Part shown: positions 2,221-43,409 of the stretch, in pieces
Layout of the letters: each line of letters opens with the position of its first letter
Position numbering within the stretch: position 1 is the stretch's first letter
Source of the DNA: Ischnura elegans
Taxonomy: Eukaryota > Arthropoda > Insecta > Odonata > Coenagrionidae
DNA: 64,000 bases
Assembly: GCF_921293095.1 (NCBI RefSeq)
Contig: NC_060254.1
Coordinates: forward strand, 5,828,001-5,892,000
Direction of reading: 5' to 3'
The notes under the pieces: model-generated
What the model was told of the DNA's origin: nothing
Databases searched by the model: none
Seen by the model: the letters and a program-made list of their open reading frames with translations, nothing else
Translations under genes and position numbers: made by a program

Positions 2221-5200
2221 CTGCAAACCAACAACAACACTGTGAAGCAACATTCAATTAACAGCCAACCAACAAAAGAAAAACATTTCACAGGCTGGTT
2301 CACCACCACACCAATAATCCACTTTGGGGTACATTATGGGGTCCAATTCCCAATACCCCAATCCACTTTACACAGGCAAGGGAAGTGGCAGTGGTTAATT
2401 CTTTTTGTCCTGGCAGTTAATTACAGCCAAATCGCGGCTGAGTAAAATTCCTACTCATAATTATGAATAAATGTTGACTCATATCTCAATAGATGTGAAT
2501 AAATCTGGTCATATGACCAAATGGATATCATTCATATCCTCAACTTCTAAATAATTTTCAAGTTATCACACAGAAATATTTCTACTTGGAAGTCTTATGG
2601 CATCACCTTGTGATCTGACCACTAGCAACTTAAGATGAAAAACATGTAGGCTTATACATCCAAACTTTACCTTATAGAGAACTTATGGGGAATTATGACC
2701 TAGGGAGGCAACAGAGGGGCGACAAAACAGTGGACGTTATAAAGGCATACCTTCCCCACCATTCTTTTGTGATTTAAAATAAGGAAATGTCAAAATTGGA
2801 GCCCACTTGCCATGAGTTGGTGACACCATTATTGACGCGATCTGGTTCACTTACTCCTTTGGGGAGAACCTTCATTAAGGGAATGCAATACTCGCAGAAA
2901 TTAATGAGCCTCTAGTAGAGAGTTGTAATGCAATTAAGGTGGCTTGCGAGGTGGTACGTAGCTAGGCCCAATCAACAGATCCCCATTATGCCTTGTTCTC
3001 TGAAATTGTGTGCGCAGGGAGGAGGAGAAAATAGCCCAGATAATCTGAAAACATTGAGATGATTGGGAGCCATACAGCCCAGGGTTTACAACACTCACTC
3101 TGAGACAAAAAAAAAACAATGTGCCCATACCTGTTGCACCATGTCTGAGAATTTTTCAGCTTCATACTTCCGGAGAGCTCTGTAATCTTCCACAGATGTT
3201 ACGTCCAACTTATGCTTTGTCTTCGGCTTGGGTGGCTCAAACGGACACGTCAAAATTGCCAATTTCACGTCCTTCAGCAACTGCAAATAATTGAAATATT
3301 TTTTTCAACCACCGATAGTAAAATCAAGGACAGGCAGCTCGAATGGCTGCATGCTCAAATGCCATGAATAGTGATGCATTCCTGATATTCTAGGCAGAAC
3401 TGAAAATGTTGCCTGATTACAAACCGACTGTACCTTGAGAAAAGATGGCCTAATAAAGAAAGTGGCAAGTAGATGGACAACATAGAAAAGGAAGACGGAG
3501 ACTAAAAAATATATCAGGAGTGGGTAAAGAAGGATGTGAAAGACAAGAATAACGAAGATGTGAAAAGATTAGTGAATGGGAGGATTGAGTGGAGAGCTGC
3601 AATGAACCAATCTTAGAATTATTAATGACTGTTGATGAAGAGGATATTACAGCTTTCAAAATTGGTGGCTGCTATACAATGGACCCCCGCTTTAAAAAGT
3701 GTTTGACCTATGATGGACTTCCTGCACGGTCAAGAACTGATTTTGCCAGTGCTGAAGAAAATTTCACTGATTTTGGCTCCTGTTGCACAATATCACCAAT
3801 TAAGAATTAATATGCCTTATTTTTTAATGAAACTTTTTAACATGGTAACACTCACATGCATTGATGCTCTTTAAACGGATTCCTCACCCAAAATAATTCT
3901 TATGCAACAAACAAAAAATTCCCTTCAGAAATGTTAATTATTATAAGTGAGGGTCCCATGTACGTCGTTCGACAAAACCTATAATTGGATGTATATATAA
4001 TTGGACCTATAATATAGTGCAAAGAGTGCTCTTACCTTGGGCATCTGAGGATGAGAGAAGTCCTTGTCAACGATGACACCACGGACGAGGACAGTGTCTT
4101 CCAACCGGCCACCCACCTTCCCTTCAACTTTGATGAGCTCAAAATTTACGTCCTTATTCTCCATGTCAGCCACGGCCAACACAGCATCAACGGCTATCTG
4201 GGCCATCTGGCGGTGGCATTTGTTTACTCTGTGGGCGTAAGGAAAGCCATCGTCAAGGAAGAAAATACATTCTACAAGTTTTGTGTAGATGTTGTGTGTT
4301 TCCATGGAATTTTACCAATGAGGTAAATAAATAAAAGGAAAAAAAGGTTGAAATAGTGAAGAAATTTAACCCATATGTATGCTACTCAATGCCACAATGG
4401 ACAAGAGGCATATTCTGTTAGAAAGATGGGCAAGTTCATTCCTCCATCTAGCCAATCAGAGTGCATCTCGAGCACGACTGCTGTCAGCCAAGTCTCCCGC
4501 CAAACCAAGTGAGAGTTTATCAATTCAACTGACCACATCCGCACCTCCAAAAAATGAAAACTATACAAAAATTGGCAAATATAAAGCTCATATATACTCA
4601 AATATAGGGAAAATAATGTTAAGGCTTAACGGATAACTGGCTGCACGCTAGGCTTAGATTGCTTGAACAATTGAGAATGGATATCTTTAAGAGAGACACA
4701 GAGAACATATTATTAGAGCCACACTATATCACCAGGTCTGATAGAAGCGATAAATTAAGAGAGATGTTTTGCCGAACGGATAGATATGCGAATTCGTTTT
4801 TCCCCCGAACCATTAAGGACTTTAATAAACGCTAGTCCCAACCTCATTAGAGCACTTTTTTTTTTTAATAGTTGTAAACGGCTGGTGTCCTAACACCCCC
4901 TGCCACACGCCTTTTAGGCGGCTCGCGGGGTATTATGTAGATGTAGATGATGACCAAAGAACACTTAACATTATTGCAAGTAAGAATTTAATATAAAAAG
5001 GCACTAATGAGAAAAGAAAAAATGATGAGAAATTAGGTGTGCAGAGTAAAAGAAAAAAACTGAGCGACAGGAAAAATACATAAGAAAAAAAGGCTATGCT
5101 AACTTCAGCATCAAACAATAAAAAATGAAAGCACAATTCTCGAGTACGAGGCATGATATCAGAACTCAACTGTTCTCGTTTGCACCTTGATTTTGAATTT

Positions 5201-8200
5201 TTGGCTCACATTTTCCGCAGGAGATGACGCTTACAGCTTTCCTTACAGCTTAGGTCTTACAGTTCCCATTGTCAACACCAGTCATAACATGCAATGACCT
5301 TCACAGAGTTTAAAGAACACAAAACCAGGAGTTAGCAAACACACCAAAAATGTTCTTTTTATTGTCCCACAGAAATTTACAGGTTTAGGAAAATTTAGAT
5401 TTGAAAAACATTAATGATTGAGATAAGAAGGGTTCCCTGTTTCTTCACTTAGCCAACCCCTAAAAGATTCACTTCACTCGCGTAAGCAGGTCATGTGTAA
5501 AGTTCAAGAAGAAAGAAATCCATTCAATTTCATCCATTTACGTGGGGCTAGAAAGGGTTTTTCTTCATAAGTCAATGACTAATCCGTATACTTTCAATTA
5601 TATTGTAATAAGGGCAGGGGTAGCTTAAAATGTGACAAGTAGCTGACACAACATCCATGAGTGCTTCTTATTCTAAAATTTCAACTACCGAATTAGCTGA
5701 CACATCATCGAGTTGAAATTATTCAACACCATATATCGAATGAAATTAAGTGATGAAAAGTTAAAGAAGTATTATATTTTGCAAGGTTCACTACCAATAT
5801 TTCATGGTGCAACCTGTTCTCCATAGCATTGTTACATCTTCGGGTGAATGATCATGATTACCTCAGCATTTATACACAAAGTGTGTGTTGAGGGGAGGGA
5901 TAGAATGGACTGAGATAAGACCGTTTCCTTGAATTGCACTGTGAAATACAATGACAACGTCACCACCACTCCATCCCTTCTTCTTCAACGCCAAGGAAAC
6001 ATACGATGGGGGTTAGAACATGCTTGGCATCAGGCATTCGTGAGTTAAGTGTGTTGTGGATGGTGGTGCTTGGCTGGAATAGGCTCTGCTACCTAAATAT
6101 AGGCAACCAGTACGTTTTAGTGAAAATTTCAATCGTAAATCCCAAAAAGCACTTTCTAACACATGCAGTAAGCCTTCTCCTCTTACTTCAACTCACCTTA
6201 TGCTTTGCAAAATTATGTCCAAATGTATTTTCCTTGGGCTACATCATAATGGAGCACTTTGATCACGTGCTACAACTAGCCCACCAACAAATAAAATTCA
6301 AGCTATACTAGAGTATTTTCATGAGTCAGTACTAGCCTTTTTCCTGCACTTCTACACTCATTCTAATCGATTAAAGCCAAAGGAAATTAAAAATCTACTT
6401 TCATGCTGTAGTTTGAGCCCTGAAAATAGCAAATAGGGATGGTGGAGCTATGGCCATGCTTGAAACTAGTAAACATTACCTCTTTTTATTCAAACATAGT
6501 TCTGCACTCAATTTACCCCTACTTATTAAAAAAAATTATGCAATGAGCTGCTGGAGACTTGGAGGCTTAGATTTCCTGAGGAATTAGTAGTTGCCTTTCT
6601 AAGAACATCATCTTAGAACCTCAGTATGTATCGAGGTCTGATAGACACGAGAATTATATTAAAGATAGATTTTTTGCCACATGGATGATAGGCATAGGAT
6701 AATACTTTCCCCTCAAGCCATTAAGGAATTTAATAAATGCTAAATGAGTACACGCATATCCTTTTTCTTCTGTGAGCGGAATGAATTGCGACGTCCCCCT
6801 TGAGGCAGCTTGCTGGGAGGTATCCAGACAAAGACTAACCCTTCCCAAAACTTCCACTACCTATGTCCCTAATCCCTACCCTCTGCACTTAATCAACGAA
6901 TTAACGTAATAAATGTAGTTGTAATCAGCCTCTGGATGATATAACAAAACATGGGTTGTGCCCATTTGATATAAATATTAAGCCTTTAAGATTACAATTT
7001 AAGTATTATCTTTTCCCACAGTGAAAAAGTTTTAGAGAGTAAAGCCTGAAGGCATTGATTAAGTAAAATTATTGTACTAAGGTTCTGACAAGGAACATTC
7101 ACGAAGTGTCCTCCGCCGATTTCGTTCAAATTTGGTGGGATGGTAGTGTTCCATAATTAATGGGAATTTGCAAAATTTCCCGTGCCCTTAAGCCCTGTGA
7201 GCCGAGATATCTGCATCCAAAGTTGCGCGCCGGCCACCCTTTTTGAGGCGAGGGGCCCCTCACTACGGGCCGGCAGCGAGGCGTCTCTGCCGGCAAGCGC
7301 TCGGGGGAAGGCCTGGGAGCGGTCCGGGCGTCAGCGGTCTACTTACTATCTTCCCACAGACGAAAGAAGCGGTGGGTGATCCGAGGACTAAACGATGGGC
7401 AATGTTTTCGAGGAATTTTTGAATAGCTTAAATTTGTACACATACCCTTGCCGGCTCCTGCTTCTAGTAAAGATTTTCAGAAAGGTTTGAGAGGAGTCAT
7501 AAAACCCATTCCTTCCACCCTCAACTATTGTTGACTGAATGGGAAAACCAAAAGGTCTTCTCCATCTGGCGAATGACGTCGCCGTCTTCGGTACCTCTGT
7601 TTAAATCAGCAAAAATGCTTTTTCTACACCATTTGCGAAGTGAACTCCGAACGAGAACGAACAAGCGAGAGATTTTGTAGACGCGTGACCTGCAAAGCCG
7701 TTCCTTTTATTTTCATTGAAATGGTGATTAATCCTAGGAATGTAGTAAAAATATTGGACAGCAAGTTTACTGCATGGATTTCCACAGAAGAACCAACTGA
7801 TTACGAAATCGAGTTGGCGGAAATTTTAGCTGGTAAGTTTCATTAATTTTTCCTTGTTTTTCTTACTACGGTGAAGTTAATCGCATCCCATCCATTCTTT
7901 ATTTTCCCCTGTTGTAATACAATTTTCCCATTTTCAGATTCCTTGAAGTCCTGTGTGGAAAGCGAAGGATCATCCTGTGTGGTAGAGGAGGATCTAATTT
8001 TTGACTTCGAAGGGAGGACGGAAGAGGAGGAAGTAGTAAGCGAAGATGAATGCGACAGTCCAGATGGAAATGGAGACGATGTTTCTCCTTCTTCTTCGAC
8101 ATCGTACGAGCCATCTCCATTGAAAAGGAAGAAAGTGGGTGATGTTAGTATGTCACAGAAGAAGATGGCAGTGGAATATTGGCGGTCCGGAAAAACTGGG

Positions 8201-11200
8201 CCACTAAAGATAGATACTGTGAGGCACCGTTTTAGGTTCGTGACCTCAAGAAAACAGCTTGTCCGGTTTGAGGAGCAAATTAATCAGGCTGGCTCTCGGA
8301 GGGAGAAATTAAACGCAATTTCTTCATGCTTAATAGAAAGATTTAGAAGAGCAAAAGAAGATTTCCTGATAGTGCACGACAGTGACTTACGAAGGTGGGC
8401 GTATGAGGATAATGGCAAAATGACTAATCCCTTAGAAAATTTTTCTGCTTCATCAGGATGGTTGTGGAAGTTTAAAAAATCATATAATATAGTGTCTAGG
8501 AAAGTTACCAAAGTTGTTTCTCGGAAACAGAACTTTGACTGGCAAAAGACATCCGAAAAGGCACATGCTTTTGTAAACGATATCCGGCTATTATTGGCCC
8601 AGAAGCCAAATTATTTTCTATTAAATACTGACCAGAGTGGGTTTAAAAAAGAATTACACTCGGGACGAACCTTGCATTTCCGAGGAGTGAAAACGGTGGA
8701 GTCAACGGTGCAGTCCCTAGGAGCGACGACCCATTCCTATACCATACAGCCGACGATCTCGATGGATGGTGAACTTCTGTCTCCTTTATTTATTTGCCTG
8801 CAGGAGAAAGGTGGAATTTTTCCAAAAAATGTTTCTGTGTTTGAAGCTCCAAATCTTCACGTCGTAGCTTCTAATTCCGGTTTGTTGACGAAAACCATTT
8901 TGCTCGAAGAGTATTTTGGTAAAGTGCTGTTTCCAACTTTAAAAAAGGATACAATTCTCTTGGTGGACTCGTGGAGTGCCTTTAATGATAGGGAAGGAAT
9001 TCTTTCCATGAAGACAGGATCATTTCACTTTGAAATGCAGCAAATACCGCCCAAAACTACAGGCATCATACAGCCGTTGGATGTGTATTTTTTCCGTATG
9101 TGGAAGAATTTCGTGAGAAAATTCTCCGACCGTGTGTTGCTGGACCAAATAGACTTAAATTTATTTCAAAGAAATAATATTTTGAAACTTCAATCTCTGA
9201 CTCACTCACAATTCTCTGCTCCTTTGTTTAAAAATTTCATTCGCTATTCCTGGTTTCGAGCGGGATACACGAATGAAAGACCAGAAGTGCATATTACACC
9301 TGTTGACTATTGTTTCGATAGTAATATTATGAAGGATAGATGTGAAATTATAGTTGAAGAACAAGGGTGCAACTTTTTGACATTCATCAGATGCGCTATC
9401 TGTGCAAACAAATGCTGTTTTCACCATTTTTTCAATGAAAATCACAACTGTGAAAAATAAAATACTATAGATCGCCATTTTTGTTATTATTTTATCTATT
9501 GAATAGATGATTGATTCATAATTATTTTGAGTATCAATGTTTTCACCATTTTTCGCTAAAAAATTAGAAAAATTTGTGCCCTATTTCACTTCTGAATGGG
9601 ATTTCATTGTTTCAATTATTTTTATTGCGGACAGTTTTTGGGTGAATTTTTGCCTAGCATTGTATGCATTTTAAATTAAAACGGAAAACTTAAGGATTTT
9701 TGATGGCTGGGTATCATTTGGAGTTGCGCAAGGAAGAGACTTCCACGAGGTTCATAGTTCAGGACTCGATAAACAGTTATAAACTCGATAATCGGAATAC
9801 ATTATTTGAAAGTGATCGGAAGTGTTTGAATCAAATCACTCATGAGAAATTCGGGTATCTTAACTTTATTTGGTTAATGGCACCTTTAAAATAACGGAAT
9901 GTTGGTAAATTCTTCCAGAAAGAGAAAAAAAGAGTGGCTTGTGCTAAAGGTAGGGTTTTGTCTATTCCTTCACGGGGTGAGGGTAAACGATTGGGTTTTT
10001 CCTCAAGCTAAAAGGAATATTTTCTATAGGCCTGGGGATACTCGAAGGTCAAGGCACCATTTGTGGGAGTTCTTGAGGGTGGGGAAAACTGTGAACGTGA
10101 GGGAAACATTTGAAAGGAAGTGGGCGCCTTCTCATTGTGCGTTTTTTATGTTTCCCGTCCCTATTATAACTGCAAAAAAAGACCGAAGGGAGAGCCCCCG
10201 CGGCGTTGGGTCAGTGGCTACTGGTGGCACCCAAGCTAATGAGTGTCGATGGTCTTCGACTGTTCGGCATTGTCACAGTCACGAAAACGGATTTCAATCC
10301 ACCTAGAAGGTAAAATCTGGCGCATGAGTATGTAGTTCCTCGCCATTGTGCGTAAATAAGTTCAATGGACTCAAAAGAGAATGAGAAAAAAGTTGAGACA
10401 TTTCTTAATGCACCGGCATTCACTGCAGGGTTAGAGGAAATTATTACGTCGTAGACGACCGGTGTCCGTTCACAACAAAAGGAGACCATACCCTCTCAAA
10501 GACTTCAATTTACCCTGATTTTCCAGTCTTCAAGAGGTGAAGGTACTCCTTGCCTGATATTAAAGAAATGAAGGAATATAGGATGCGGTATCTAATTATT
10601 TGTTACTCCGAAAATTCTTGGAGGCGCCTTCCCCCAAAATTCATGTGGAATGTTTCTTATTTACTACAAAACTAAATGATTAAGTATGTCATTTACTTAA
10701 TACGCAAATCTGCATGGAGCTAAATGCTATAACGTTAAATTCGCTATGAGTAACATTAATTTTGCCCTTTACGACATTAAGAGTGGATATGCAACTTAAT
10801 TTGCTGGCAGGGTTAAATTCCCGGCAGGTGTACAGAGAGTACGCATCCTTTGAACTAAATTTATTATTTCTTATGGAAATTTGTCAATCGACCACGGGAA
10901 AATTATCAGCATTTATCATTTATGAATTCTAAGGAAACTGGGCTACGGTGATTTTCATTCTTGAATGCCTTAAAAATCCATAATTTCAATCTTTCCTCCG
11001 CTTCTTGTCAGCGAGAGGATGGTAGACCGCTGACGCCCGGACCGCTCCCAGGCCTTCCCCCGAGCGCTTGCCGGCAGAGACGCCTCGCTGCCGGCCCGTA
11101 GTGAGGGGCCCCTCGCCTCAAAAAGGGTGGCCGGCGCGCAACTTTGGATGCAGATATCTCGGCTCACAGGGCTTAAGGGCACGGGAAATTTTGCAAATTC

Positions 11201-24309: not shown

Positions 24310-25480
24310 CCTACTTTTTGCCACCCCTTTGACCTTGACTGTGACCTTTTTGGGTTAACGGTTTAACTTTCGTTTCGTGTTTTTTTTTGTTTTTCTTGGC
24401 TTTTTTTCTACATCGAATTTTTTTAACATTGAAACCACGCAAGGCAAATTTTAGATTTTGGTTTGGACCCACATTGCAAGGTCAAAAGGCCAAAATTGTA
24501 ATTTTTTCTATCACTCAACAAAAATACGACCTTTTGCGATGAGTATGCCAATTTTCATGAGCATAGCTCGAGGGGAAGTGAAGTGAGTAAATGTAAAAGA
24601 GGTCAAAAATGACTCGCGATCAACAGAAGAGCTTTCAATTTCAGGATGTTTGTCGTTTGTCATAACCGTGAGTCAAATTTATTACTATGAGCCGCGAAAG
24701 ATTTAATCAAAAAACATTTCAAGTTTATTCCTCAAGTTCTCTGTTCCTATGCACATCGTATCCGAATCACTGACAAGCTTCGCGCCCTAATTCAAACATA
24801 TTCACCTAAATTTAACGAATAAATTAATGGAAGTTAGTTTTGATCACTCGATTTGAAATTCTAACTAATTAAAATTAAAATTTTATAAAAGTTAAAGACT
24901 TAATTTCATGTCTAACTACATTTTTAACTTGTAATTATAATACTTTACAGTTTACAATCGCGCTCGAAGTACCCTCCACAAGCCATACAAGCAGGGGTCG
25001 GCGGACAGTCTCTGAAAAATAATTGATCCCGGACATTTGAAGCCACCGTAGACATTTGAACCCGGCTCCACGGGGAATGAAGCCTCCCCACCACAACACT
25101 CACTATATTGAAACTGGGACTGTGATTTTGAAAGTCCACTAAATAATCTCTGCTTCCATAATTCGGATACGATGTCTCCGTTTTAATCTGCCCTCCCAAA
25201 GTTCCCCTTCACAATCATTATTTAAAACAAAAACCTAATTTTTCTCAGTTTCAGTTCAAGAAATCTATTCACCATGCGTTGTAAAAAAATGTCACCCGAG
25301 TTTGACGAGCAATATCTCAAAGACCGCTCCTTTCACTTTATTATTTTTACGGCGTATTAAATATTTTCTTTTTTTCGCTGACTGATGGCATGCATAATAT
25401 ATAGATGCTAATAATTACTTCATTGTGCGCACAGAAACGACATTTCAGCCCATTTTTCTGTTTGCCGCATCGATGCACCA
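24310..25480. other. AT-rich DNA without recognisable content
   Basis: No gene or element boundaries are visible. Near 24330-24360 and 24478 there are several GACCTT/AAGGTC words in tandem and inverted arrangement. The minus frame at 24945-25199 has no recognisable domain. Confidence 0.35.
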
Positions 25481-25489
25481 CTTTTAAGG

Positions 25490-26173
25490 CTATCTATTGA
25501 CAGGAATCATGAGGGTTCAAGGGGAACCCTCTTGGGGTTACAACCTCCGGGGCCGGGACCCAAGCCCGTGGCTTATTCGCCCGATCACCCGGGGAGGGGC
25601 TGGACGGGAAGGAAAAAGGATGGAAGCGCCGTCGCGATCGGAGCCCGCCGACGCCTCCAGGGATGGGAAAGGGCTGGAAGGAAGTGGGAGTAGGGATAAA
25701 GCACCCCAGTACTATGGAAGCAAAGGGGGCCCTACCTAGCGAAACCATGCGTACGCAATTTCTCTGCCACCATCCCGGGGAGATTTTTCTATGAGGAAGA
25801 AAAATCCCGGATAGGGACAGTGGGAAGGCTATCTATTGACAATGTGTTCGGGGGTCCAGGGCGGATCCCCGCAAGGATACCTCTCGAGGACCGGGAACCA
25901 AGTCAGAGACTTATACGCCCGAGCCTCTCGAGAGGGGGAGGACAGATAGGAACAAAGGATAGAGGCATCGCCGCGATTAGAGCCCGACGACGCCTCAGGG
26001 AAAGGACGGGGAAGGAAGGACGGGACGAGGAATCCTGCACCGTCACAAAGGCGGGCAGGTCCTACTATTAGCGAAACCAAGCAATATGCAATTAATATTC
26101 TAACGACCTTGGGGGATTATTCTACGAGGAAGAATAATCCAACGATCAAATCGTTAGATGCTATCTATTGACA
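25490..26173. repeat. Tandem array of ~335 bp structured units
   Basis: CTATCTATTGACA begins units at 25490, 25829 and 26161 (periods 339 and 332; the third is partial). Aligned positions form hairpins whose sequence changes while pairing is kept. Stem 1: GAGGGTTC/GGAACCCTC in unit 1, GGGGTCC/GGATCCCC in unit 2, ATTGGGG/CCCTAAT in unit 3. Stem 2: AAGCC/GGCTT versus AAGTC/GACTT. Terminal stem: GATTTTTC/GAAAAATC versus GGATTATTC/GAATAATCC with similar loops (TATGAGGAA, TACGAGGAA) and an outer TCTAACGA/TCGTTAGA in unit 2. Units are GC-rich in AT-rich surroundings. Open frames exist on both strands in each unit, but I recognise no protein. Another CTATCTATTGAC lies at 47157. Confidence 0.75.
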
Positions 26174-26217
26174 GTAGAATTGGGGTTAATTTCTCCCTAA
26201 TCAGGTATATTTGTTGC

Positions 26218-26262
26218 TTAACCCTTAATTAACCGGTAACGTGCAGTCTGAGAGACCGCTGC
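26218..26262. other. Possible piggyBac-like terminus
   Basis: TTAACCCTTAATTAACC followed by a GTCTGAGAGAC palindrome looks like a TTAA target plus a C-rich terminus with a subterminal palindrome. Similar GCGGTCT...AGACC palindromes are at 26603 and 27012. I find no matching opposite terminus, so this is tentative. Confidence 0.25.
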
Positions 26263-26340
26263 GTTTCTAAAATTATGAATAGATATTTTCAAAAGTGCTG
26301 AATTCAATTGATTCGGCTTTAACTTTGTGAAAATCCATGT

Positions 26341-26478
26341 TGAAATGAAAATATACAAACTTGGAAACTTTCCACAGGAAAATTTATTGGTACTTGATAA
26401 TGACGCCTCAGCGTCGAAACGCGTCGTACCAATAAATTTTCCTGTGAAAAGTTTCCAAGTTTGTATATTTTCATTTCA
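26341..26478. repeat. 53 bp inverted repeat capped by the hammerhead-like core
   Basis: Arms 26341-26393 and 26426-26478 pair at 52 of 53 positions around a 32 bp apex. Weaker pairing continues outward (TAGATATTTTC near 26281 with CAAAATATCTAT near 26490). The arms are AT-rich and non-coding. A transcript from either strand would form a long stem with the ribozyme-like element at its tip. Confidence 0.9.
26389..26430 (+). ncRNA. Hammerhead-ribozyme-like motif
   Basis: The order is stem I GGTAC...GTACC, core TTGATAA (26394-26400), stem II GACGC-CTCA-GCGTC (26402-26415), core GAAA (26416-26419), a minimal stem III CGCG and GTC before the predicted cleavage point at 26425/26426. This matches the compact hammerheads known from Penelope-like elements, where CUGANGA...GAAACGCGUC is typical. 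Two core positions differ from the consensus: C3 is U and G8 is A. These two bases pair with each other in active ribozymes, so U3-A8 would be a compensated pair; decay is the alternative. Activity is not established. Confidence 0.55.
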
Positions 26479-26499
26479 AAATTGCTGTTTCAAAATATC

Positions 26500-27622
26500 T
26501 ATAATCCTCGTTAGCGTCATGATTTTGTATAATAAGGACATATAGCACACTTAAAATTTAACGTTCTTATTATTTATTTCTGAACATTTTCAACTGAATT
26601 TGAGAAGCGGTCTGTGAGACCTCACGCCACTAAATTGGAAAAACCAATAAACGTAATGCTGGTGGAAATGAATCAAAGAGTTGTTAAAACAATTCCTAGT
26701 GATTTTTCAAGAATAATAACAACAATAATAACTAACAATAATAATTAACAATTTATAAGGAAGCATTTCTGGTTGCATAACGTGGATAATTAAGTACTTG
26801 ATTTAAAAAAGTACCATAATAAAAATAACTCAAGTGTTTTTGATATCAGTTTTTTGATCCTGTTCCAAATAACAATTTTTACTGAAAAAGTTGGTTCGTA
26901 TTTGGAATTCAAAATATAATATATAAGTTTTATAATAGTTGAGAAGTCAAAGAAACAGCAAACTAAGCAATAAAAATGACTTTGCGACGTTTTACGAATC
27001 ATTGTTTTATTGCGGTCTCCCAGACCGCATGTCACTGGTAGTGTATCAAATATTTCACGTCAATGGTGAAGGGATAAGAAGTCTCCTGAAAAGGTGCGAA
27101 GAGGGATTTCTAAAAACCGATGGGATTTTATGTAGGTATGAAGATGCAAAGGCAACAAAAAGATGTTTCGCAGATGAATCGCCCAGCCTTTGCGAGGGTG
27201 TTCCCAATCTGCTCGAGAGAGGGCGTCTTCTCTCCTCGTTATTGTTCTGTCCTGCCAATGGGTCCCACAAGGCCCCCCCTCCCTTGGGTCCACAACTCTC
27301 TCTCCAGGCCGACGGCGTCGCTCGGTGGCTGCTGCAAATGCCTCCCACGGGGAAACGAGAAACTCAGTGCGTGCTAATGCCTCTCCTAATTGCCCTCCCA
27401 CACTCTCTCACTCTCCGTCTCTCGCTTCGACCAATCCGGCTGTGTTGCTGTTCGGGGGTTGGATGGGGGTGGTTGCAATGGGGTGCGATGTGCAGCAGAC
27501 GACAGCGCGAGACCTCTTTAAGGGAGTCGATAAACGCTCGCTCGCTCTCATTCCAAAAGCGGAAGAGGGAGGAGAGGGAGGGAGAGCAAGAGGGAGGAGA
27601 CACATATTTTGTCACGCGAATA
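26500..27622. other. Unassigned region, AT-rich then GC-rich
   Basis: 26500-27000 is AT-rich with ATA/AAT microsatellite-like runs. 27070-27620 is unusually GC-rich and open in several frames on both strands, the longest 26939-27628 (229 codons, plus). None of these shows a recognisable domain, and low-complexity Ser/Arg/Pro composition suggests base composition rather than coding. A host exon or CpG-rich promoter is possible but unsupported. Confidence 0.3.
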
Positions 27623-41965: not shown

Positions 41966-43409
41966 TCACTGAGGAAACATTTGCCGGAAAAGGTTCATCC
42001 TCCTATCCACCTGCAAAGGATTAATCCCCTCAGCATGACCATCAGCATGACCCTCAATATTCATGCCTGCATCTTCCTCATCTATCATAAAATCCTCATC
42101 TTCCCCTTCCTCTAGGCATATGTTATGCAGCACACAGCAGCTTAAAACTATTTTGGTCATCATCTGGATGTTTGATATTTCTAAGTATTTTAAACGTCGA
42201 AAGCGACCTTTGAGGAGACCAAACGCTTTCTCGACAACCATTCTTGTCGAAGAATGCAGAAAATTAAATTCTAAATGTTGGGGAGAAAGAGCACCATTAT
42301 CCTTAAAGGGAGGCACAAGCCATTGCAGGGAAGGGTAGGCAGAATCTCCAATGATGAATTTATCGCCAGGAAACAATTCCTCAACTTCCTCCTCTGCAAA
42401 CCTGAAAACCTCCGACCTCCTGAGGACTCTAGCGTCATGGAGTGATCCTGGCTCCCCACACACTACATTTGTGAATCTCATGTTGTTATCCACAATACCC
42501 TGCAGAATTATAGAAAAAAAATTTTTCCTATTGCAGTAATCCATGGCATTTTCCAGGGGTTTTTTAATAGCAATATGGGTCCCATCAATTGCTCCTATAC
42601 ACCCACGAATGCCCCTCAGGTCCTCAAAACCCTGCTCAACTGCTGCGATTCGATTTCCTCGTGGCCATTTGATTTGGTCATTTATAATGCTGTTGAGCCA
42701 GTCCACAACACGTTTTATGACTCTAAATGAAGAAGATATAGAAATATCGAACCTATCTGCAATGGTTCTCAGAGGCTCAGTATTAGATAAATACCACAGG
42801 GTCAGGAGGAAACTTAGCTCCGATGAAATTTTAGCCATGCCATCTGGATGGTGTGGAATTGATCCACTTGCTTGAAGGTCGTCTGAAGGAAGAAAATATT
42901 ATTTTATACTACTGAATTTGGCTCTATAATATGCTCTGATATTCTTCGTACAATAATTGCAGTCTTGATGCTCACCTATCAAACGATATGCAGTTATGCG
43001 TCTCAGCCGAAAGTGACTACGGAACTGCTCATCATCGTAGCCGTGTGCTGTGGCAAGGAAATTGTGGACGCGCACCTTTCTTCTGCCACGTAGAAGCAGC
43101 TCGAACAAGGGGAAAATTGCATCGTGGTCAGCTTCCCCCTCATTCTCATCGGAAGCTTTAAATTAAAATTTTCGAATTTGAATGCTTTCAGAATGGTCGC
43201 ATCAGTTAAATCCACATTTTTATAATTAACTCAAGGATATAAGGAAATGGCCGATCGCTAACCGATTACTAAATAATGCAGCTATCGATAAAAGATCATT
43301 AATTACTATTCTTACATGAACTACTCATGTTTTCCCATTCATCGTCACTGCTGCTGCTGCTACTCGACATGGGTTGCATCACATAATCCAGAACCAGTTG
43401 GTTCTCCAT
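41966..43409 (-). CDS. PIF/Harbinger DDE transposase (3 exons)
   Basis: Exons 43409-43316, 43155-42976 and 42882-41966 splice in phase (donors GTAAGA and GTGAGC, acceptors TTTAAAG and CTTCAG) into 396 residues starting MENQLVLDYVMQPMSSS. A Ser/Asp-rich N-terminus is followed by a helix-turn-helix-like region (LRTIADRFDISISSSFRVIK). The DDE_Tnp_4 nuclease shows GAIDGTHI (Asp191), IGDSAYP (Asp271) and VVEKAFGLLKGRFRRL (Glu309), plus the terminal CCVLHNICLE. All three catalytic residues are present and no stop interrupts the frame. The length is typical of the family. With the Myb/SANT partner it makes a complete Harbinger system. Confidence 0.9.

Follow-up and report, generated by a model that had tools for sequence, protein, structure and literature searches.

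Tandem copies of a dispersed SINE-like family in Ischnura elegans and their probable link to R1-clade LINEs

Two related elements at one target site

Within the window, by which we mean the whole 64,000-nucleotide stretch of Ischnura elegans DNA that was analysed, from 5,828,001 to 5,892,000 on contig NC_060254.1, the 13-mer CTATCTATTGACA occurs exactly at positions 25490, 25829 and 26161, at spacings of 339 and 332 bp. With up to two mismatches allowed there are six matches in the window, a number that none of 100 shuffles reached. We attribute the threefold recurrence to two related elements of about 320 bp, U1 and U2, occupying one site, and the features of the locus are as follows.

25486-25502: 17 nt AAGGCTATCTATTGACA, common to copies 1 and 2 of the target-site duplication (TSD, T)
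25489..25502, no strand: TSD copy 1, GCTATCTATTGACA
25503..25826, predicted RNA sense minus: U1, putative full-length R1-type SINE
25511..25531, minus: U1 RNA 3'-terminal hairpin GAGGGTTC/GGAACCCTC, 8 nt from the 3' end
25553..25584, minus: U1 double stem around an AAGCC/GGCTT hairpin, with a counterpart in R1-clade LINE 3' UTRs
25763..25826, minus: U1 two-part hairpin at the 5' end, with a 10-bp outer stem and the inner stem GATTTTTC/GAAAAATC
25811..25826, minus: U1 RNA 5' end TTCCCACTGTCCCTAT (16 nt), identical to the genome's own 28S rRNA across the R1 site
25828..25841, no strand: TSD copy 2, separating U1 from U2
25842..26159, predicted RNA sense minus: U2, putative full-length R1-type SINE of another subfamily than U1
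25850..25870, minus: U2 RNA 3'-terminal hairpin GGGGGTCC/GGATCCCC
25891..25922, minus: U2 double stem around an AAGTC/GACTT hairpin, with a perfect 17-nt match to the 3' UTR of the R1-clade LINE R1c
26098..26159, minus: U2 5'-end two-part hairpin, outer UCUAACGA/UCGUUAGA and inner GGAUUAUUC/GAAUAAUCC
26160..26173, no strand: TSD copy 3, with flanking genomic DNA thereafter

The initial annotation had taken CTATCTATTGACA as the start of each of three tandem units. The 13-mer is indeed present at all three positions, but it does not mark a unit start: copies elsewhere in the genome end at the same inner boundaries without it and carry direct repeats of their own, which argues that the 13-mer is a TSD lying outside the element. 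On sequence grounds the plus-strand order of the locus is T-U1-T-U2-T, the product of two distinct insertion events at a single site. With nine family members as queries no match extends past 26159, so the ATTGGGG/CCCTAAT hairpin, formerly assigned to a third unit from 26161, belongs to flanking DNA and that unit falls away. Open reading frames in U1 and U2 reach 80-84 aa at most on both strands, and no long ORF is present.

Genome searches covered the Ischnura elegans assembly (1,722,721,009 bases in 110 contigs) and gave 3,552-4,687 first-look candidates per query, which are not verified copies; the best 40 were scored in each (U1, 48 rows from the best 40 of 3780; U2, 48 rows from the best 40 of 4687), and the loci are biased to young copies because of this selection. 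U1 is 97-98% identical to its six best other matches and U2 up to 99.7%, with the same boundaries kept. Sixty loci were fetched with the two queries and 59 analysed, L059 being a duplicate of L029. An exact TSD of at least 10 bp flanks the copy in 55 of the 59, with lengths of 11-19 bp and with 13-14 bp in 33 of the 55; no exact 10-bp TSD was found in the other four (L044, L051, L054 and L082).

These data bear directly on the earlier proposal of a tandem array, in which non-coding RNA genes or a satellite would have multiplied head-to-tail by recombination with CTATCTATTGACA inside the unit. Two direct-orientation units at these spacings, with conserved structure, would suit an array, but the dispersed copies with their private TSDs contradict it. 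The divergence pattern also speaks against it: U1 and U2 are only about 70% identical to each other across 263 positions, yet reach up to 98% (U1) and 99.7% (U2) with copies elsewhere. We give an array next to no weight and favour two separate insertions at one site; a structured mobile element was among the options that the initial annotation had raised.

U1 and U2 are, by these measures, members of a dispersed, non-coding, SINE-like family. As in SINEs, the copies are short, non-coding and dispersed with TSDs, and some are truncated at the predicted RNA 5' end (six copies plus the 28S copies described below). Searches with simple patterns found no Pol III promoter from a tRNA, 5S or 7SL gene, with a B box in 0 of 19 copies and isolated A-box-like matches in three. 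ARAGORN found no tRNA in the window, Rfam at gathering score found no known RNA family there, and an Rfam E-value scan of 25400-26600 gave two chance-level matches overlapping U2 (E 0.31 and 0.51). A conventional SINE descended from a tRNA, 5S or 7SL gene and fitted with an R1-type tail would likewise be dispersed, about 320 bp long and without a long ORF, but the promoter patterns, the absence of a tRNA from the window and the lack of an Rfam match to the units make such an origin very unlikely. With no Pol III promoter pattern found, the family is by strict definition SINE-like and nearer to a SIDE; for brevity we call it the SINE.

RNA strand and folded structure

Truncated copies with TSDs (L042, L043, L053, L056, L050 and the partner of L073) keep the window-left end of the element and lose the right; L051 is truncated likewise, with no TSD of at least 10 bp found. 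As target-primed reverse transcription loses the RNA 5' end, the end missing from these copies should be the 5' end, which makes the minus strand the RNA strand. Read on the minus strand, the 5' hairpin contains 37 G.U cells as against 4 A.C. Together, the truncations and the G.U excess are two independent signs indicating that the RNA strand is the window minus strand.

In 18 copies, drawn from several subfamilies, roughly the first 64 nt of the predicted RNA form an outer stem of 10 bp and an inner one of 9 bp. The alignment (A2) takes in 18 of 19 copies, L071P being left out for a large internal gap; R1b, described below, was left out of alignment A4. In the 18 copies 93.5% of 339 cells are paired, and 10 of the 19 pairs have changed on both sides. 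Against 500 shuffles, which do not remove the relatedness of the copies, covariation was 0.484 versus 0.230; none of the shuffles reached this or three further measures, and 21 of them reached the fifth, further pair types (25 versus 21.9). In slid controls, which keep relatedness, the paired fraction falls to 38-62%. Of this hairpin the initial annotation had named the inner stem, GATTTTTC/GAAAAATC in U1, and had missed the outer one. The stems named in the initial annotation are present in U1 and U2, and the compensatory change it had claimed is real in this hairpin across more copies, which supports its view that selection acts on a folded RNA rather than on protein. Folding energies were computed on the plus strand, the complement of the predicted RNA, and were unremarkable for U1 (z -0.5) and strong for U2 (z -4.25).

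Toward the 3' end, the double stem and 3'-terminal hairpin occur in 11 copies of one 3' type; another six copies, with a second 3' type, have a different fold. RNAalifold reported no pairs on the mixed 3' half because the two types had been aligned together; pairs appear once the copies are split by 3' type.

A conserved structure at the RNA 5' end would also be expected of a self-cleaving element, whether a retrozyme or a SIDE with an HDV ribozyme, in which a ribozyme in the 5' hairpin would set the RNA 5' end by cleavage from a co-transcript; this would be compatible with mobilisation by R1. Such SIDEs have a precedent in Drosophila, where R2/R1 SIDEs are described as carrying the R2 ribozyme (PMC3414825). 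The absence of a B box from all 19 Ischnura copies, together with T-runs of at least four in 16 of the 19, makes co-transcription plausible. The loop of the SINE 5' hairpin, UUCCUCG, presumably resembles HDV L3, but we take the 9-bp inner stem to be long for HDV P3. A scan of 25400-26600 against Rfam, admitting E values up to 5, gave no ribozyme match, and the HDV pseudoknot could not be fitted by eye, with neither a P2 partner nor a P1.1 GG. On balance we consider a self-cleaving 5' end unlikely.

R1 target sites, 28S rRNA and a partner LINE

The R1 clade of LINEs is best known for its rRNA-gene specificity, and the segment TTCCCACTGTCCCTAT at the start of the U1 RNA is one that we take to be 28S rRNA spanning the R1 insertion site. 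The targets of the SINE resemble the same site. Across 51 non-redundant sites (4 of 55 were dropped as redundant targets) the target logo has G/A at +1 in 47 and T at +2 in 41, with CA at -2/-1 favoured by a rule of the script. The SINE TSDs start with TG in RNA sense, as the R1 TSD does, and TGT is found in 31 of the 51. The SINE target can be written (G/A)ACA|GT and the 28S R1 site GACA|GT; past this motif the mean target preference is weak.

A 27-base 28S segment has 10 exact sites in the genome, and a search of viral contigs with the 28S pattern gave no matches. Two of the genomic sites (L097 and L098) have the SINE exactly at the 28S R1 site, R1-like LINE 3' ends of two kinds are found at four (L090 and L093; L091 and L095), one (L092) has 28S without an insertion within the 120 nt read, and one (L089) has a diverged 28S flank. 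At L094 and L096 a different insertion stops about 60 nt short of the R1 site on its upstream side, near what we take to be the R2 site, and these are presumably R2 elements. In the longer pieces L099 and L100, an RNA-5'-truncated SINE lies between two copies of TGTCCCTATCTACT, the 14-bp R1 duplication. The family has thus been found inserted at the 28S R1 site with a 14-bp TSD, although most copies lie elsewhere; with their flanks, L099 and L100 are 89% alike and perhaps represent one duplicated insertion. Separately, GGTTTCGCTA..TAGTAGG, at about 80-100 in SINE sense, is strongly conserved and is similar to GGTTTCGCTAGATAGTAG, the antisense of the 28S stretch immediately downstream of the R1 site.

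The 28S-like letters of U1 lie in the 5' arm of its outer stem. A copy of the L046 type, with the usual arms, forms 10 of 10 outer pairs. When the 28S-like arm of U1 is combined on paper with the 3' arm of L046, 5 of 10 pairs remain, versus 9 of 10 in the real U1. In the 3' arm, U1 and the L046 type disagree at five of ten letters; four of these restore a pair, and column 62 is unpaired in U1. The reverse mix retains 8 of 10 pairs, as three of the four restoring letters are tolerated by the old arm as G.U, which offers an easy path and leaves selection on the re-fitted arm likely rather than certain. Foldback copying is a less likely source of the matching arm, because two letters of the 3' arm, at columns 56 and 57, are still those of the L046 type and form G.U pairs.

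A candidate partner was found beside a U2 copy at L064, where an R1-like reverse transcriptase and the RT of the 28S element R1a are 50% identical across 197 residues. The joined locus L064+L103 reads, in sense orientation, T, U2, T, R1 LINE, T, second SINE, T, the 15-bp T being TGTCTCAGCTTAGTA. The LINE (R1c) starts within its coding region and ends GCCCCCAACACTAG; its RT matches RVT_1, and among the 120 of 909 matches listed the named homologues include 'type-1 retrotransposable element R1'. Its 3' UTR holds AAGTC-TCT-GACTT within a CCCGGG stem, and 17 nt of it, ATAAGTCTCTGACTTGG, are identical in U2.

The 3' part of the LINE gave 95 first-look candidates, of which the best 40 were scored. 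Four of 10 further LINE copies (L105, L106, L109 and L111) are followed by the SINE after a T of 14-15 nt, and T is repeated beyond that SINE, perfectly in L105 and L106 but with one mismatch in L111 and three in L109; in L106, L109 and L111 a further SINE-like start comes after the recurring T. No SINE match was found in the 3' flanks of the other six, of which L108 is followed by the 28S T and five (L104, L107, L110, L112 and L113) have neither SINE nor 28S T in the 3' flank. SINE and R1-clade LINE thus share targets and stand in common arrays, both at L064+L103 and in these four flanks.

The 3' ends of SINE and LINE have a common structure, a common tail and the one 17-nt block, and no long sequence identity. 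Covariation in the common 3' stem is modest, at 0.209 versus 0.127 (reached by 5 of 500 shuffles), and double-change pairs number 2 versus 1.9 (382 of 500). With the UTRs of the 28S elements R1a and R1b as queries no SINE locus was matched at E up to 0.01, and the best match between U2 and R1a was 20 nt at E 0.2. R1b is the second 28S R1-like element, at L102; its R1-like frames, at 1-705 and 1530-1901, stand apart, so it is probably interrupted.

Re-insertion at used sites and a proposed route of mobilisation

Reading of the flanks revealed family partners separated by T at L030, L034, L038, L067, L072, L073 and L078, as in the window. L071 has two partners, with T common over about 12 nt; L039, L050 and L061 have a partner without a clear outer T, and at L044 the insertion is nested in the GGGACA of a U1 copy itself. 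A third T (12 nt, at most one mismatch) was found in 10 of 55 loci versus 23 of 2970 tests with the Ts of other loci, a control that gauges chance sequence matches and not insertion rates. In L052 the third T is a local repeat; in the other nine it lies beyond the RNA 3' end of the main copy, which argues that the main copy entered the 5'-side T, a direction partly built in because loci were picked by youth. By this rule U1 was probably inserted first in the window and U2 second. In L067 and L030 the outermost T is one base off and the two Ts flanking the young copy agree, as predicted if the copies inserted sequentially. Two further groups, L068/L081/L088 and L061/L075/L083, each occupy one position in diverged repeats; their flanks are 74-90% alike and their SINEs 97-99.7% identical to U2, which suggests independent insertions guided by sequence.

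Collectively, these observations make it very probable that U1 and U2 represent two subfamilies of one non-coding SINE, and that this SINE uses the proteins of an R1-clade LINE to move by target-primed reverse transcription. An R1 protein would bind an RNA bearing the 5' hairpin and the R1-type 3' structures, and we infer that recognition runs through the latter. The R1 endonuclease would then nick (G/A)ACA|GT-like sites on the window plus strand, matching the observed preference, and reverse transcription would proceed from the RNA 3' end, consistent with the 5'-truncated copies that carry TSDs. A second cut some 14 bp away would yield duplications of the lengths observed. Insertion restores the cut site together with its flank 5' of the element, so the next SINE or LINE could insert at the same site, giving T-U2-T-U1-T in sense orientation. 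More tentatively, the TSDs of old SINEs and LINEs may act as docking sites across the genome, re-used beyond what the weak target preference would give and so building mixed arrays at arbitrary loci, with U1 having in addition captured its 5' arm from 28S and had the partner arm re-fitted by compensating changes.

The closest described relatives are the hybrid R2/R1 SIDEs of Drosophila, reported in the 28S R1 site, one of them found among R1 copies in tandem arrays with the TSD between neighbours (PMC3414825). Like these, the Ischnura SINE is short and non-autonomous, with R1-type 14-bp TSDs, a structured 5' end and an R1-type 3' end; unlike them, as they are described there, its fetched copies lie at ordinary sites except for two, with candidates in the thousands, and its 5' end does not have a recognised R2 ribozyme structure. 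In the 28S R1 arrays of Drosophila, new copies are reported to enter the 14-bp TSD 5' of an existing copy, and R1 is also reported at non-28S sites with 4-9 bp of identity to the 28S site (PMC2718515). The Ischnura loci follow the same 5'-side entry rule, whereas their arrays stand at several unrelated sites and mix LINE with SINE. SART1 proteins are described as acting in trans on a foreign RNA, which they mobilise by way of the SART1 3' UTR (PMC7265360). The trans mode we propose, the R1 target and the TSD agree with the R1 clade (R1, SART1), whereas the telomeric repeats and poly(A) tail reported for SART1 are absent from the SINE, which has no long ORF (PMC7265360).

Tandem re-insertion of R1 at one TSD is known from Drosophila 28S genes; in Ischnura it takes place at ordinary sites and with a SINE of many copies. 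No R1-dependent dispersed SINE was found in the titles and abstract openings of the open-access literature searched, and a search for SINE28 gave nothing related by title. The family joins a many-copy SINE to the R1 clade and offers natural arrays from which to read the order of insertion, the choice of target and the structure of the RNA.

The window contains several other elements. At 26330-26489 lies a separate foldback with 64-bp arms, 92% complementary and 32 nt apart, that looks like a MITE-type hairpin; in the Rfam scan it scores 58.4 on MIR6140, under the curated cut-off of 140. A 537-aa stop-to-stop frame at 7847-9460 has Tc5 transposase domains, and a 310-aa frame at 41966-42898 has DDE_Tnp_4, from the name of which we assume it to be Harbinger-type. 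A fragment at 62050-62493 matches Integrase_H2C2 and probably belongs to an LTR-type element. The reverse transcriptase fragment at 56847-57737 matches RVT_1; R1a and R1b pieces have no match in the window at E 0.001, so this is a different LINE.
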